From positions 372,001-436,000 of the forward strand of contig NZ_CP054493.1 in assembly GCF_015265475.1 (NCBI RefSeq): a stretch of DNA of 64,000 bases, in the 5' to 3' direction. Below are positions 24,621-31,544 of the stretch, piece after piece; the stretch's first letter is position 1, and each line of letters begins with the position of its first letter. The notes under the pieces were generated by a model. The model was not told the origin of the DNA, ran no database searches, and saw only the letters and a program-made list of their open reading frames with translations. The translations under genes were made by a program, and so were the position numbers. The DNA comes from Candidatus Sulfurimonas marisnigri. GTDB taxonomy: Bacteria; Campylobacterota; Campylobacteria; Campylobacterales; Sulfurimonadaceae.

Positions 24621-24969
24621 GTATATAGAAAACTTTGAAAAAGCACAAACAACTGAGAAAACTATTCCAGAATTTCGTGCTGGTGATACTCTTCGTTTAG
24701 CGGTAACAATTAAAGAAGGTGACAAGACTCGTGTACAAAATTACGAGGGTGTTTGTATAGCAAAAAGAGGTCAAGGTACTGGTCAAACTATTACAGTTCG
24801 TAAAATCGGAGCTAATAGTATTGGTATTGAGAGAATATTCCCACTTTATAGTGACTCAATTAATGAGATAATGGTTGTTCGTAGAGGACGTGTACGTCGT
24901 GCTAAACTATTTTATCTTCGTGATCTTGCAGGTAAAAAAGCTCGTATTAAAGAACTTAGAAGAAAATAA
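24610..24969 (+). CDS. rplS: 50S ribosomal protein L19
   Basis: L19 sits at the 30S-50S interface. The 119-residue product has the usual [13 protein letters not shown] start region, the [16 protein letters not shown]-like stretch, [10 protein letters not shown] and the basic [11 protein letters not shown] end. It closes the rpsP cluster. A hairpin overlapping its stop codon probably terminates the operon. Confidence 0.96.
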
Positions 24970-24978
24970 TCTTCTAAG
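24955..24978 (+). terminator. Hairpin spanning the rplS stop codon
   Basis: CTTAGAAGA (24955-24963) pairs perfectly with TCTTCTAAG (24970-24978). The six-base loop contains the TAA stop of rplS. A pyrimidine-rich stretch follows. It probably ends the rpsP operon transcript. Confidence 0.6.
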
Positions 24979-25051
24979 TCCCTTTCTTCCTCCTCGTAAT
25001 ATTTTCGTCACATAACTCCAGTACTATTCCAAAACTTTAATTTAATGATTG

Positions 25052-25057
25052 TATAAT
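25052..25057 (+). promoter_or_regulatory. -10 box for the M20/ATP-grasp/M14 operon
   Basis: TATAAT preceded by TG lies 40 bases before the ATG at 25097. It supports that ATG as the start of the M20 reading frame, because an in-frame ATG at 25049 would overlap the promoter. Confidence 0.55.
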
Positions 25058-25096: not shown

Positions 25097-26200
25097 ATGA
25101 ACTATCTTGATGACCTTAGAACTATTATTCAAATAAACTCATACACCCAAAATAAGTCTGGTGTAGATAAAGTTGGTGAAATTTTCGATATTTGGTTTAG
25201 AGAACTTGGATTTAATATAGAAATATATCAAAGAGAACTTATAGGCTCTCACTGACATTACACTTCTAAACACAAGACAAATTCCAAAAAACTACTGCTC
25301 CTTGGTCACATAGATACAGTCTTTCCACCTGATAAATTTGAAAACTATAGCGAAGATAATGAGTGGGTCTATGGCCCTGGAGTTTGTGACATGAAGGGTG
25401 GAAACATTGTAGCACTTCAGGCATTAAGAGAATTAAAACAAGAAAATATAGAAATTCAAAACATTGATGTTTTGTTAGTTAGTGATGAAGAGACAGGGAG
25501 TGATGACTCAAAACTACTTACAGCAAAGTTAGCTAAAGAGTATGACTACTGTTTTGTGTATGAAGCAGCGGGAGAAAACTTAGAACTTGTAACTGGGCGA
25601 AAAGGTGTTGGAACTTATTTTATTGAGATTCTAGGAAAAGCAGCACATGCAGGAAATAGCTATACCCAGGGATATGATGCTAATCTAGAGGCTTCATATA
25701 AACTTCAAGAGCTTGTTAGACTTACAGATTTGCAAAAGGGTACAACAGTAAATGTTGGCAAAATCGAGGGAGGTATAGGTGCAAACACTATTTCCCCTCA
25801 TGCAAAGTTGACTTTTGAACTTAGGTATAAAGTCGCAGATGAGAGAGATAGAGTTTTAAACTCTATTGATACTATAGTTAATAACTCATATGTAAAAGGA
25901 ACCGTCTCAAAACTTAGTGGCGCAATACAAAGAGATGTTATGCAAACAACTGAAAACTCATTAATATTAGTTAGAAGTATAGAGAATATTACTTCAACTT
26001 CAATAAAAACAGAGGAGAGAGGCGGAGTGAGCGATGCAAATATTGTTAGTTCAGTTGGAGTTGTAACATTAGATGGATTTGGGCCATTTGGTTATGGTGA
26101 TCATACAATACATGAGAGAGCAAGCAAAGAGAGTTTTAAAAGCAGAATAGATCTAAGCAAGAAACTTTTTAGCCATTTTATAAAAAATTTTAATTTTTAG
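25097..26200 (+). pseudogene. M20-family metallopeptidase with an in-frame TGA
   Basis: The reading frame encodes a 367-residue M20 (ArgE/LysK/CPG2-type) zinc peptidase but codon 53 is TGA (25253-25255). Frame and similarity continue cleanly on both sides. Downstream are all catalytic marks: H71 and D73 in LGHIDTVFP, the bridging Asp in GVCDMKGG, EE in VSDEETGSD, and a late GYGDHTIHERA histidine. A restart at ATG 25391 would lose H71 and D73. So the gene is broken by a point mutation, read through, or the base is a sequencing error. M20 enzymes remove C-terminal or acyl-linked amino acids; the ligases downstream suggest it once released products of the same pathway. Confidence 0.75.
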
Positions 26201-26209
26201 GGGGGGGGG
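26200..26209 (+). repeat. Run of ten G between the M20 and ATP-grasp genes
   Basis: Ten consecutive G begin at the last base of the M20 stop codon and end 8 bases before the ATP-grasp ATG, directly joined to the GAAGAG ribosome-binding site. No other G or C run of this length is visible in the window. Long G runs in Campylobacter and Helicobacter change length by slippage and switch genes. Confidence 0.85.
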
Positions 26210-26217
26210 AAGAGTAA

Positions 26218-27123
26218 ATGTCAAAGAGAACGATTGGTATGTGGATGTATAGCAATAGCGGCGGTGCTAAGATACAGGAGAAAATTATATCTAAGTTGAG
26301 AGAAAGAGATATAGAAGTTATTTCAGAATTGGATCTTCGTTTTGCAAGAGGTTCAAAGGCTGGGATAACATGTAATGCTACGAATGTACTAGATTTGGAT
26401 CTCTTTTTTTCATATAATGCGGGTGAACAAACGGTTGCGCAGGTCTACATGTATGAAACTATTAATAAATATATACCAACCATAAACAGTTATAAGGCAT
26501 TTGCACTCTCAGAAGATAAATTTAGAACTAATCTTGCACTCAGTTATGCAGGAGTAAATACATCAGACTTCTTTTTATGTCATAAAGAAACATCAGAATA
26601 TATGGTTGAGAAGTTTAAAGAGTGGGAAAAATTAGTTTTTAAGCCAGTTGATGGGTGGGGCGGAAACGGAATGGCTTTACTTGAGTCACGACAAAGTCTT
26701 AATACATTGATGCCGTTTTTAAATAAATCTGACATAAGGCATATATATCTAGAGAAGTTTATAGAAAATGATTTTACAGATTTTCGAATTGATATTGTAG
26801 ATGGTGAATTTGTATCTTGTTATGGGCGCAGAGCAAATGACAGAGAATGGAGAACAAACATAACAAGCGGTGGAAGCATAATACTTCGTGAAGCAAATGA
26901 TGAAATCGTTGGTATTGCAAAAAAAGCAACAAAAGCTTTAGGGATGGATATCGCAGGCGTAGATATTCTATATGATAAAAAAGAAGAAAAATATGTTGTT
27001 TTGGAAGTAAATGGTATTCCAGCCTTTGCGACGCCAGAACAAGAGAAGATGGGTCTTGATTTTAATGATAAAAAAATAGACCTTTTAGTCAACTTAATAG
27101 ATAGAAAAACAAAACTAGGATAA
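26218..27123 (+). CDS. ATP-grasp ligase, RimK/glutathione-synthase type
   Basis: This 301-residue ATP-grasp enzyme should join a carboxylate to an amine through an acylphosphate. It has an N-terminal pre-ATP domain (1-95), then KAFALSEDKFRTNLAL near 93-108, the ATP-binding K142 with the loop DGWGGNGM (145-152), and the metal ligands D249, E263 and N265 in GVDIL and LEVNG, all intact. It resembles RimK and LysX ligases, but I cannot name a substrate. It starts 8 bases after the G10 run and is followed 6 bases later by a second ATP-grasp gene. Linkage to peptidases suggests peptide or protein-tail chemistry. Confidence 0.82.
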   Translation: MSKRTIGMWMYSNSGGAKIQEKIISKLRERDIEVISELDLRFARGSKAGITCNATNVLDLDLFFSYNAGEQTVAQVYMYETINKYIPTINSYKAFALSEDKFRTNLALSYAGVNTSDFFLCHKETSEYMVEKFKEWEKLVFKPVDGWGGNGMALLESRQSLNTLMPFLNKSDIRHIYLEKFIENDFTDFRIDIVDGEFVSCYGRRANDREWRTNITSGGSIILREANDEIVGIAKKATKALGMDIAGVDILYDKKEEKYVVLEVNGIPAFATPEQEKMGLDFNDKKIDLLVNLIDRKTKLG

Positions 27124-27129
27124 AAAGAA

Positions 27130-28455
27130 ATGACAAAAGAGCAAAAACTTCCAAAATTAGGATTTTTATATTTAGATTATGTATTGAGATTTTTTGATTA
27201 CAGCAACTTTAGAGGTTGGCCAGATAAAATTGAGGAAGTCACATATCATTGGAAAAATGATAAAACAAGATTTATAAATGAAGTAAAGCGTAAAAAAATT
27301 GATGTATTGGTTGGGAATATCCCAGCAACTGCTTATGAAACTTTCAAAGAAATTGCGGATGCCCTTCCACATGTAAGATTTATACCATCTATTGAAACAC
27401 AGTTTTCAAACAAATCTAAAGAGAATGTAACGCTATTTTGTGAGAAATATAATATTGCTGCTCCAAAAACAATAATTACTTATGATGATGAAAAAGCTGA
27501 TAAACATTTTAAAAACTGCTCTTATCCTCAAATAGTAAAAAGAAGTTATGGTGCATCTAACTATGGTGGATACTTTGTTCATAAAGTTGATAATTACAAA
27601 GAGGCAAAAGCATTATTTGCAGAAAAAAAATATAAGCCAGTATACTCACAAGATGCAATTCCACTTAAAGATAGTGGAGATATTCGTGTTATGCTTATTG
27701 GGCATAAGCCGGTTTGCGCATTTTGGAGATATTCAGGTGCCGGTCAGTGGATAACAAACACGTCTCAAGGTGGAGATATGTCTTATGATAATGTCCCTAT
27801 GGCTGCACTTGAACTTGCAGTAAAAGCTTCAAAAGCGGCAAAAGCAGAGTATTGGGCATGTGATATTGGTATTGATGAAAATACAAATAAAGCCTATATT
27901 ATTGAGTGTGCAACAGCATTCGCAGCATTCCCTTATATAAGAGATTGGATTGCTCAGTATATAATGTGGGATTTAAGTGGTGGTAAATTTAGACTTCCAC
28001 ATGTACCTTTGTTCTCTTGGGAAGAGCTTGGAAAAATGGACCCTTCAGTTTTAAGAACATTAAGACATCTCTATTTTTCAAAATATGAGCCATCGGCTGA
28101 TGGAGCATACTGGTTGGCTGACAAAGGTAATTTTGATATGCAGTTAACAGATGAGGCAAAAGCATCAGATGTACCAGAGTCTATCAAACCACCATTAAAA
28201 GAAGAGGAACTTCCTACATTTCTTAAAGAGGGTGAGGAAAAAATACTCTCAAAAATAGGTGAAGAAAAGTTGTACAATGTAGTTGATGTTTCTTTAACTG
28301 AACTGATGACACTTCAGGGAATGGAAGAAGATGTAGCAATAAACATTAAAGAGTTAGTTCAAGATAAAGAGATTACAACATTTGAAAAGCTGGCTGAATA
28401 TTTTATAACTTCAAAAGAACAGATTCAGCAGTGGTCTAAATTTTTTAAAATATAA
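27130..28455 (+). CDS. Second ATP-grasp protein with C-terminal helix-hairpin-helix-like tail
   Basis: This is a 441-residue protein. Residues about 95-290 look like an ATP-grasp core: K137 in YPQIVKRSYGASNYGG, D245 in ACDIGID and E259 in YIIECATAF. The usual metal-binding Asn two residues after the Glu is A261, so the metal site is altered. Residues 340-375 form an acidic, proline-containing linker. The tail (about 386-438, ELMTLQGMEEDVAINIKELV) resembles a ComEA-type helix-hairpin-helix, often a DNA- or protein-binding unit. Spacing of 6 and 14 bases to its neighbours puts it in the same operon. The function is unknown. Confidence 0.7.
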   Translation: MTKEQKLPKLGFLYLDYVLRFFDYSNFRGWPDKIEEVTYHWKNDKTRFINEVKRKKIDVLVGNIPATAYETFKEIADALPHVRFIPSIETQFSNKSKENVTLFCEKYNIAAPKTIITYDDEKADKHFKNCSYPQIVKRSYGASNYGGYFVHKVDNYKEAKALFAEKKYKPVYSQDAIPLKDSGDIRVMLIGHKPVCAFWRYSGAGQWITNTSQGGDMSYDNVPMAALELAVKASKAAKAEYWACDIGIDENTNKAYIIECATAFAAFPYIRDWIAQYIMWDLSGGKFRLPHVPLFSWEELGKMDPSVLRTLRHLYFSKYEPSADGAYWLADKGNFDMQLTDEAKASDVPESIKPPLKEEELPTFLKEGEEKILSKIGEEKLYNVVDVSLTELMTLQGMEEDVAINIKELVQDKEITTFEKLAEYFITSKEQIQQWSKFFKI

Positions 28456-28469
28456 TATAAGGTGAACAA

Positions 28470-31070
28470 TTGAGACAACAGTATAGTTCGTATGGTGAAT
28501 GTATAGAATTTTTTGAATCTGCACAAAAAAGTAATCCAAATCTTTTCAAGGTAGAGTCAATAGGTAAAACTTGGGAAAACAGGGATATTATTGCTGTAAG
28601 CATTACAAAAGACATAAATACTCATTTAGATAAACCAGCACTTTTTTATACAGGTACTATTCATGCAAGGGAGTGGGTCGGGATAGAACTCTCTCTGCGC
28701 TTTGCAAAATATATATTGGACCATATAGATTATGATCCTCAGCTTAATGATATTTTAAACAGAGCAACCCTATATATGATCCCATGTGCAAATCCAGATG
28801 GATTTGAATATTCTAGAAACCATTTCTCTTTTTGGAGAAAAAATAGAAGAAAAAATGTAGATGGAAGTTTTGGTGTTGATTTAAACAGAAACTTTAGTGT
28901 AGGTTTTACTACAAATAATGAAACAACATCAAATGTATATTCTGGACCAAGTGCTTTTAGTGAGCCAGAAACTGTAGCAATTAGAGACTTTGTACTCTCT
29001 CATAAAAATATAACAATTGCTTTAGATTATCACTCTCAAGGAAATGTATTTTTCCCTGCTCATAATTTTATACATGAAGATGCTGTAGATGCTGTAGATT
29101 TAAACCTATTGGCAGGAAATATGGCTGAAGAGATTAGAAAAGAGTCTGGTCGTGAATATGGCATTCATATGGGTAAACCGCCAGTGCACCTTATATCAGG
29201 AAGTGGGCGAGAGTTTTACTACTCCCAAGGTGCTCTTTCTATTGTTGCTGAAGTTGGTACTAGAAATATTAGTGACTACATAGAGCACATGTCTGAAAAC
29301 CTTGATGAAAATATACCAGCATTAATATTTGCACTCTCAGAGGTTAATAACTACAATAAAAATGATCTAGCTCCCAGAGTCGAGAACTTTATAGCTGTTG
29401 ATGTTAGTTCAAAAGAGGTCGAATTGTCCTGGGACTACGTCGATGACGAAACAGTTTATTTTGAGATATATCGTTCAAAAAAGATAAAAGGGTTTACTCA
29501 AGCTTCAAATAGAATTGGTCTGACAAAGCTAAAGACATATATTGATAAAAATTTAATATCTTCAACAAATTATTATTACTATATTCGAGCAGTATGTAAA
29601 GACAGAAATGTAAAGTCAGCATTTGCTCAGATTCTTGGAGTCAGAACTAAGCCTGCATATAATATGTTTTCTAAAATACTTTATCCGCTAGCAGAAAGCA
29701 TAGGATATGTTGGTGAAAAGACAAAGAAAAATGCAGAGCACTTTGGAAATAACTCTCTATTTGTTGGAATAAGTGAGGGGAAAGGGGAGTGTTTTGGTAT
29801 TTGTGGGTTCTCTTTAAAAACGGTGCCTCAAAATGCAATTATAACTAGCGCTTCAATTTCCTTTTATCCTATGAATAGAGTTTCTGTCCAAGTTGAGAGT
29901 TACGGTGAGTGGCGTCTTTCACAAATAGATGAGAGAACGATTACAAGTATAAGTAGTTATGAAGAAGTTAAAAAGGCAGATGTTCTAAGTTATATAGATA
30001 GACCTATTGGCTCCGCACAACTATCACAAGGTGTATGGAAAACATATAATTTTGCAAAACAAGAATTAGACGTATTGCAAGAGTCACTAAAAAGAGAAGA
30101 AGCATATTTTAAAATGCAAGGTCCTTCTATGCTTCCGTTAGACCGAGCATCACAGCTAATGCAGTGGGATATTGGATATGGAAAATTTAGTGGTGGACTT
30201 TCATATAGGCCTAAGCTTGATATATCATATACAATAAGTGAAACTAAAATAGAGCTTAGATCAGCATATGAGTACACTGCATACAAAGATAAACTAGTTG
30301 AAAATAAATTAGTTGTAGGCTTTGATGAAGATGGCAATAAAAAATATGCTTGTTTTGAGTTTGATCTTTCTAAATTACCAGAGATGGATAATACTGTTAT
30401 TTCAACTTCTTACATAGAATTAGATGTTCAAAGTATAAACTCAAATAACAATCTTCGTTTTCATATAGAAATGATTACCCCATATGAAGGTAAAAAAAGT
30501 TATAACAAGATTAAGTATAGAAAAATTATTGAAAGAATAGGCTACGATGTTAGCGTAACTGATATAAAAAAAGAGTCTAAGCAACGATTTGTTTTTGATA
30601 CTCATGCTATTAATGAAATGGTAGAGAATGCAAAAGAAACAGAAAAAAATTCTAAAGCTGTTTTTATTATCTCAGCATCAACTCAAAAATTATTTTCAAA
30701 AGCACAAAATGTAGATTGGTGTGATGAGAAAAGAGTTAACAGACCATCTTTAGTAATAAATTATATTAAAAAACGAAGATTCGCGCCAGATAAGGTTGAT
30801 AATTTAAGACACTCTATTGAAAACAATATGATAAGACTAGATTGGGATGCACCAAAGGATGAAGGCTATAAAGGAGTTATAGTTGTTAAAAATCCTTTTA
30901 AAGTTCCATGCTCACCATATGATGGGCAAAAACTTTATGGTGGATCAGATAGTTATACATATGATAATTTTGGAGATATGAATGTGCATAAGTATTATGC
31001 AGTATTTTCATATGATGATGTTCCAAACTTTTCTCAACCCGTATTTATCAAAATAAACATAGAAAAATAG
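28470..31070 (+). CDS. Large M14 zinc carboxypeptidase with Fn3 and beta-sandwich repeats
   Basis: This is an 866-residue protein starting at a TTG (AAGGTG upstream). The M14 domain fills residues 1-295 with every active-site residue: H65 and E68 (HAREW), N139-R140 for the substrate carboxylate, H188, and the catalytic E261. An Fn3 domain follows (about 300-390). Two beta-sandwich units of about 190 residues resemble DNRLRE/CBM-like modules and each end in RPxLxIxY (near 588 and 767), and a second Fn3-like module ends the protein (about 775-866). There is no signal peptide, although such modules usually occur outside the cell. M14 enzymes trim C-terminal residues; with two ligases upstream it may undo or process their products. 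Confidence 0.82.
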   Translation: MRQQYSSYGECIEFFESAQKSNPNLFKVESIGKTWENRDIIAVSITKDINTHLDKPALFYTGTIHAREWVGIELSLRFAKYILDHIDYDPQLNDILNRATLYMIPCANPDGFEYSRNHFSFWRKNRRKNVDGSFGVDLNRNFSVGFTTNNETTSNVYSGPSAFSEPETVAIRDFVLSHKNITIALDYHSQGNVFFPAHNFIHEDAVDAVDLNLLAGNMAEEIRKESGREYGIHMGKPPVHLISGSGREFYYSQGALSIVAEVGTRNISDYIEHMSENLDENIPALIFALSEVNNYNKNDLAPRVENFIAVDVSSKEVELSWDYVDDETVYFEIYRSKKIKGFTQASNRIGLTKLKTYIDKNLISSTNYYYYIRAVCKDRNVKSAFAQILGVRTKPAYNMFSKILYPLAESIGYVGEKTKKNAEHFGNNSLFVGISEGKGECFGICGFSLKTVPQNAIITSASISFYPMNRVSVQVESYGEWRLSQIDERTITSISSYEEVKKADVLSYIDRPIGSAQLSQGVWKTYNFAKQELDVLQESLKREEAYFKMQGPSMLPLDRASQLMQWDIGYGKFSGGLSYRPKLDISYTISETKIELRSAYEYTAYKDKLVENKLVVGFDEDGNKKYACFEFDLSKLPEMDNTVISTSYIELDVQSINSNNNLRFHIEMITPYEGKKSYNKIKYRKIIERIGYDVSVTDIKKESKQRFVFDTHAINEMVENAKETEKNSKAVFIISASTQKLFSKAQNVDWCDEKRVNRPSLVINYIKKRRFAPDKVDNLRHSIENNMIRLDWDAPKDEGYKGVIVVKNPFKVPCSPYDGQKLYGGSDSYTYDNFGDMNVHKYYAVFSYDDVPNFSQPVFIKINIEK

Positions 31071-31091
31071 GTACTAAAACAACCTATTTTT
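31063..31091 (+). terminator. Hairpin terminator overlapping the M14 stop codon
   Basis: AAAAATAGGT (31063-31072) pairs perfectly with ACCTATTTTT (31082-31091) around a nine-base loop. The left arm includes the stop codon and the right arm ends in a T run. This is a convincing end for the operon. Confidence 0.75.
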
Positions 31092-31544
31092 CTCTTCTAG
31101 ATTTTTTTCTACATAACTTTCAAAGATTAAGAAACAACTAAGCATTAGTTGCCTATAATTCCCATCCACAAACAATGAGACCTTAAGTTAAGGCCTAGAG
31201 AGACTTCGAGTAGAAGCTTTTGAATATGTTTGAGATCATTGAAAACTAAGCAAGTAAATAGACGAGATAACTAATAACAAATTAGTTAATTAGTCACTAT
31301 AAGTTTACTTAGAAATAACTAATATAACAACAACCGTCTATTCTATTTGGTCTATAGCAATATAGATACCCAAGTAGTAATAGATACTATACAAAACTAG
31401 GGGAACCGATTTTATCGCAAGATAAAAAGTTTCTTTAGAAAAAAGTCCACTAACTATTTATAGATAGTGGCAACAAAGCCAATGAATTTTAATTCTTGGG
31501 CAATGATCAGTAATTTCACAGCAATGTGATCTTTACATAATTTA
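31092..31544 (+). promoter_or_regulatory. rRNA operon promoter and 5' leader
   Basis: This gap of about 450 bases holds no gene. A TATAAT at 31154-31159 is the best -10 for the rRNA operon, about 385 bases before 16S. The leader contains the left strand of the 16S processing stem (31228-31260) and a hairpin at 31447-31470 (CCACTA-A-CTAT with ATAG-A-TAGTGG, one mismatch). A TGATCTTTACA at 31527-31537 faintly resembles boxA. Confidence 0.6.
31240..31254 (+). other. 16S processing stem, left strand
   Basis: TGAAAACTAAGCAAG is the exact reverse complement of CTTGCTTAGTTTTCA at 33142-33156, on the far side of 16S. Weaker pairing extends on both sides. The long stem should be the RNase III site that releases the 16S precursor. 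Confidence 0.75.

Follow-up and report, generated by a model that had tools for sequence, protein, structure and literature searches.

The analysed DNA is a stretch of 64,000 nucleotides from the genome of Candidatus Sulfurimonas marisnigri (NZ_CP054493.1, positions 372,001 to 436,000), hereafter the window, in which all positions are counted. Downstream of rplS and directly upstream of a ribosomal RNA region, the latter read from sequence context, lie four genes that encode an M20 peptidase, two ATP-grasp ligases (AG1 and AG2) and an M14 carboxypeptidase. All four are on the forward strand with intergenic gaps of 17, 6 and 14 bases, and each has a Pfam match, in agreement with the linkage and family assignments of an earlier note on this DNA. 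The locus contains the following features:

25052..25057, + strand: TATAAT hexamer, candidate for a -10 element, roughly 40 bases 5' of the M20 ATG
25097..26200, + strand: gene for a carboxypeptidase G2-like M20 peptidase, disrupted by a TGA; PF01546 (8e-20) and PF07687 (7e-17) with the TGA read through
25253..25255, + strand: in-frame TGA, codon 53 of M20; R, Y, L or T at this position in relatives
26200..26209, + strand: ten-G run between the M20 stop and the AG1 start
26218..27123, + strand: AG1, RimK/ArgX-type ATP-grasp ligase, subfamily b in the tree; PF08443 (6e-21), nearest solved structures RimK (2e-18) and ArgX
27130..28455, + strand: AG2, LysX-like ATP-grasp ligase with an extra C-terminal region; PF08443 (5e-13), structure model, nearest sequence LysX
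28470..31070, + strand: M14 carboxypeptidase with a C-terminal extension of about 570 residues made up of beta domains (fn3, DNRLRE-like); PF00246 (7e-55), Arg at carboxypeptidase A (CPA) position 255
31061..31093, + strand: terminator-like hairpin directly after the last stop

The hairpin after the M14 gene has a 12-bp stem and a T-rich tail, with a folding energy of -12.2 kcal/mol (z -4.9), which confirms the terminator previously placed at the end of the set. The preceding gene rplS has a terminator-like hairpin of its own (24954-24979), which is consistent with a separate transcript for the four genes. The shared promoter proposed in the earlier note, with its -10 element at 25052, holds up only in part: TATAAT is present at that position, but a consensus scan of the region yielded 40 promoter-like sites compared to 42 expected from shuffled sequence. 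In the whole single-contig genome of 2.49 Mb, runs of at least nine G are confined to four sites, and one of them is the ten-G run preceding AG1, a possible slippage or phase-variation site that could alter the spacing to the AG1 start codon.

The four genes had been taken to be intact, and this has to be corrected for M20, as the TGA at codon 53 was missed. As sequenced, translation of M20 ends after 52 residues, before the zinc ligands, and the longest frame 3' of the TGA (25391-26200) starts just past the zinc ligand D98 and lacks H71; an active M20 is not producible in this genome as sequenced. Aligned M20 relatives have an open frame at the corresponding position. Beyond the TGA, 134 of 135 strongly conserved positions are intact, the single change being D333Y, so the lesion would have arisen very recently as a nonsense mutation or would be an error in the sequence. 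Decoding of the TGA as tryptophan or selenocysteine was considered and is unlikely, since the position is not conserved and is occupied by ordinary codons in relatives. Gradual decay of M20 was likewise rejected, as a relative-rate test revealed no acceleration.

The solved structure nearest to M20 is that of carboxypeptidase G2 (CPG2, 1.9e-37), an enzyme that removes glutamate and cleaves folate-glutamate. The five zinc-site residues H71, D98, E132, E156 and H336 match CPG2 and are invariant in the ten M20 sequences aligned, the window copy being cut by the TGA. The glutamate-binding Lys208 of CPG2 pairs, in a loop region of the alignment, with an invariant Glu163 of M20, so M20 may not act on glutamate. 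M20 belongs to the same family as LysK.

The M14 profile aligns with animal carboxypeptidases, with a fold match between model and structure at a Z of about 30. The zinc ligands, the substrate arginines and the catalytic glutamate are retained, with H65, E68, H188, R126, N139, R140 and E261 present in 61 of 61 sequences. The specificity position (255 in bovine CPA) corresponds to R247 and is occupied by Arg in 60 of the 61 sequences and by Lys in the remaining one. In animal carboxypeptidase O (CPO), Arg255 confers acidic specificity and Glu-Glu is cleaved (PMC9925722). Judged by its residues, M14 thus has the CPA/B/O-type set together with the CPO-like residue for an acidic preference, and it is predicted to remove acidic residues. 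The C-terminal part of M14 gives a weak match to NF033679 (DNRLRE) that stays below the cut-off. Fn3 and DNRLRE domains are more usual in secreted proteins; no signal peptide is visible in M14, and its relatives begin at the mature catalytic domain.

Both ligases pass the cut-off of the general Pfam RimK domain and remain below those of the narrower families, namely the RimK equivalog PRK10446 (cut-off 331 bits; AG1 61.3, AG2 16.9), the LysX equivalog TIGR02144 (275.6 bits; AG1 91.2, AG2 69.6) and the RimK-family subfamily TIGR00768 (143.4 bits; AG1 125.5, AG2 71.8). The best named family of AG1 is MptN, at 132 bits compared to a cut-off of 350; MptN adds glutamate to a pterin cofactor. The substrate pocket of AG1 carries the motif W-R-T-N-I/V..GG, comparable to W-R-A-N-V in ArgX and F-R-S-N-L in RimK, both of which are glutamate-adding enzymes (PMC10092738, PMC10433800). 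The corresponding AG2 motif, W-L/I-T-N-T..GG, is comparable to W-I-T-N-T of Thermus LysX. Thermus LysX adds aminoadipate. The best fits to the AG2 model are the ArgX-LysW complex, LysX and RimK (Z 20-21), with other ATP-grasps at 18.9 or less, which places the modelled AG2 fold closest to the ATP-grasp branch that tails C termini. The GSWGR motif, by which LysX and ArgX recognise their carrier (PMC10433800), is absent from both ligases, the loop reading Y-G-P-S-N-Y-G-G in AG2 and D-G-W-G-G-N-G in AG1.

AG1 falls into two well-supported subfamilies, of which only subfamily b is found in the window. At five loci (L070, L072, L073, L074 and L076) both occur in tandem, so that the set comprises five genes wherever AG2 is present as well. 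The differences that AG1 shows in the relative-rate test stem from the two subfamilies and do not reflect decay. A helix-hairpin-helix domain, usually a nucleic-acid-binding fold, was matched at the C terminus of 37 of the 71 AG2 sequences scanned and could dock the ligase to a nucleic-acid-bound target, such as the ribosome, a polymerase or the nucleoid. Homology of the C-terminal region of the window AG2 to this tail was not supported by profile comparison.

Among 298 near-complete Campylobacterota genomes, any of the four genes occurs in 34, all four together in 30 and only a part in 4 (P about 1e-37, uncorrected for phylogeny). Per gene, AG1 and AG2 are each present in 31 genomes, with one further, decayed fragment of AG2, whereas M14 and a close M20 are each present in 32. 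Pairwise hypergeometric P values, which ignore shared ancestry, are about 1e-36 or less. The partial carriers are one genome each with M14 alone (G356), M20 alone (G175), M14 and AG2 (G321), and AG1 and M20 (G219). The set is distributed patchily over eight families, which argues for its gain and loss as a unit. In two genomes (G001 and G053), AG2 lies at a distant place with the other three genes still present. The set M20-AG1-AG2-M14 is present in all 14 same-family loci with enough flanking sequence. In a phylum-wide list of 80 named genome loci, which are the best 80 of 324 relatives and share some contigs with the same-family list, M20 adjoins AG1 in 63 of the 64 loci with room (41 on the same strand, 22 divergent) and all four genes are found together in 32 of the 38 loci with enough flank; as the scan retained only these 80, the full spread is wider than counted. 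Furthermore, the gammaproteobacterium Photobacterium sp. DA100 carries a complete set with a divergent M20 on a 2.1 Mb replicon (NZ_CP119424.1; L195, 13718-20098), in which AG1, AG2 and M14 overlap by 4 bases each. The earlier note had made co-occurrence across Campylobacterota the test of its proposal beforehand, and the complete carriers, the intact loci and the Photobacterium set together bear it out very strongly. The four genes are inherited jointly as a strict set, which is found in many sulfur-oxidising Campylobacterota and in at least one marine Photobacterium. No relatives of the set were found in viral and phage collections, and none of the four genes matches a PADLOC model for anti-phage defence.

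A search for the acceptor covered linked genes and known targets of related ligases. Clustering of the neighbours of 116 loci yielded no linked fifth gene: besides the four, it returned a chromosomal context that is conserved in one family (ffh, rpsP, rimM, trmD and rplS), a single large cluster in which unrelated neighbours are mixed, and genes present in at most 19 loci. The LysW/ArgW carrier family PF21344 exceeds its cut-off in 0 of 16 set-carrying genomes and in 4 of 14 control genomes, which extends to whole genomes the earlier statement that a LysW-like carrier is missing nearby. Ribosomal protein S6 was rejected as a target, as its tails are acidic both with and without the set and end in A, K or V in some set carriers. 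Since there is no linked gene and no LysW, and S6 does not track the set, the target would be encoded elsewhere or be a small molecule.

Taken together, the reading that we favour, at a probability of roughly 0.45, is that the set is a cytosolic module for C-terminal peptide tailing, in which ligases and peptidases oppose each other. AG1 would use ATP to attach glutamate to the carboxylate at the C terminus of an acceptor, which would be encoded elsewhere and is probably a protein or a small peptide. AG2 would add another residue, either to this same chain or to the chain once lengthened, and its LysX-like pocket motif suggests that this residue is probably not plain glutamate. In the opposite direction, M14 would take off acidic residues at the C terminus. 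M20, a relative of carboxypeptidase G2 and LysK, would take off either the other residue or the final one. In the genome of the window, which encodes no active M20 as sequenced, only the two ligases and M14 would be at work. The data show the gene set and its joint inheritance, the enzyme families, the catalytic residues and the pocket motifs, from which we infer the residues added, the opposition of ligases and peptidases on a shared substrate, the cytosolic location and the nature of the acceptor. The folds, the pocket motifs and the acidic preference predicted for M14 support the earlier assignment of the ligases to bond formation and of the peptidases to cleavage at a C terminus, but M20 is broken in this genome as sequenced. 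A more far-reaching proposal is that two ligases and two carboxypeptidases, each pair differing in amino acid choice, build up and remove a mixed tail at the C terminus of a single protein, which would amount to an undescribed and horizontally spread tail code; we regard this as doubtful.

The alternatives differ mainly in what the ligases would modify. The set might synthesise and degrade a small molecule, for example the alpha-glutamyl tail of a folate-like cofactor or a short peptide solute, with no protein being modified. MptN as the best named family of AG1, the nearness of M20 to a folate-glutamate-cleaving enzyme and the lack of a linked protein acceptor all point in this direction; however, the best fits of AG2 are to enzymes that extend the C terminus of proteins, M14 is a carboxypeptidase of the kind that acts on peptides and bears large additional domains, and cofactor genes are not linked to the set. 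We consider this explanation possible, though somewhat improbable. The same comparison applies to the known MptN/CofF alpha-glutamate ligases and CPG2-type hydrolases, which resemble AG1 and M20, respectively, but from which the present set differs by scores far under the cut-offs and by the missing cofactor linkage.

A carrier pathway of the LysW type, in which an ATP-grasp enzyme loads an amino acid onto a scaffold for modification and subsequent release by M20 or M14, is unlikely. The LysX/LysW/LysK and ArgX/ArgW systems share with the present set the pairing of an ATP-grasp ligase with an M20 peptidase of the LysK family as well as the fold and pocket motif of AG2. They depend, however, on features that are lacking here, as LysW stays below the cut-off in all 16 set-carrying genomes, neither ligase has GSWGR, and modifying enzymes of the LysYZJ type are not linked; the M14 peptidase is an additional component. 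Least probable is a general scavenging role for the peptidases, with the ligases belonging to a separate pathway and the linkage being historical. The part sets, each confined to a single genome, fit such a history, but 30 of the 34 carriers are complete, even where AG2 lies at a distant place, and the set is kept across phyla.

The tailing module has two closer counterparts among systems that modify proteins. In RimABK, which tails ribosomal protein S6 through RimK and RimB, a RimK-family ligase shares its transcript with a protease by which the tail is limited or trimmed, and the ATP-grasp fold and the AG1 pocket motif are similar. In contrast, its protease is retropepsin-like instead of M14 or M20, it has one ligase instead of two, S6 tails do not track the present set, and AG1 scores far below the RimK cut-off. 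In the tubulin tail cycle, a TTL-type ligase and a CCP-type M14 peptidase act on tubulin. This cycle shares with the present set the logic of an ATP-grasp ligase working against an M14 deglutamylase, cytosolic in that case, and a basic residue at the position for acidic specificity, whereas the present set is bacterial, combines a CPA/CPO-type M14 with RimK-type ligases and has an extra M20. Tailing by ligases and peptidases is well known in eukaryotes, as for tubulin, and has few bacterial examples. The present set appears to be undescribed, as a literature search, which covered few subscription journals, yielded only the RimABK and LysX systems. A strict set of two ligases and two peptidases in about 10% of the sampled Campylobacterota and in a Photobacterium poses a defined, testable question: which molecule carries the tail and what does its addition or removal switch?

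Several minor observations concern individual genes. In five Sulfurimonas-type genomes (L055, 8103-10180; L058, L059, L060 and L061), efp is followed on its own strand, after 28-90 bases, by a solo AG2, and dnaE comes next in most of them. EF-P was considered as a target because of this arrangement and was rejected, as its C terminus (YLEKVK or YLEKIK) is not acidic and the neighbourhood is absent in most genomes; it is retained as a lead only. The decayed AG2 fragment, with several stops, lies at L068 (G039:C1:157086-157469) in a same-genus genome that otherwise lacks the set. In several genomes (L035, 5368-5697; L041, L047, L048, L049, L051 and L065), the gene directly 3' of M14 encodes a membrane protein that resembles UspB and has about 110 residues, and a protein of the same type follows a distant AG2-like gene at L064 (8185-8526).
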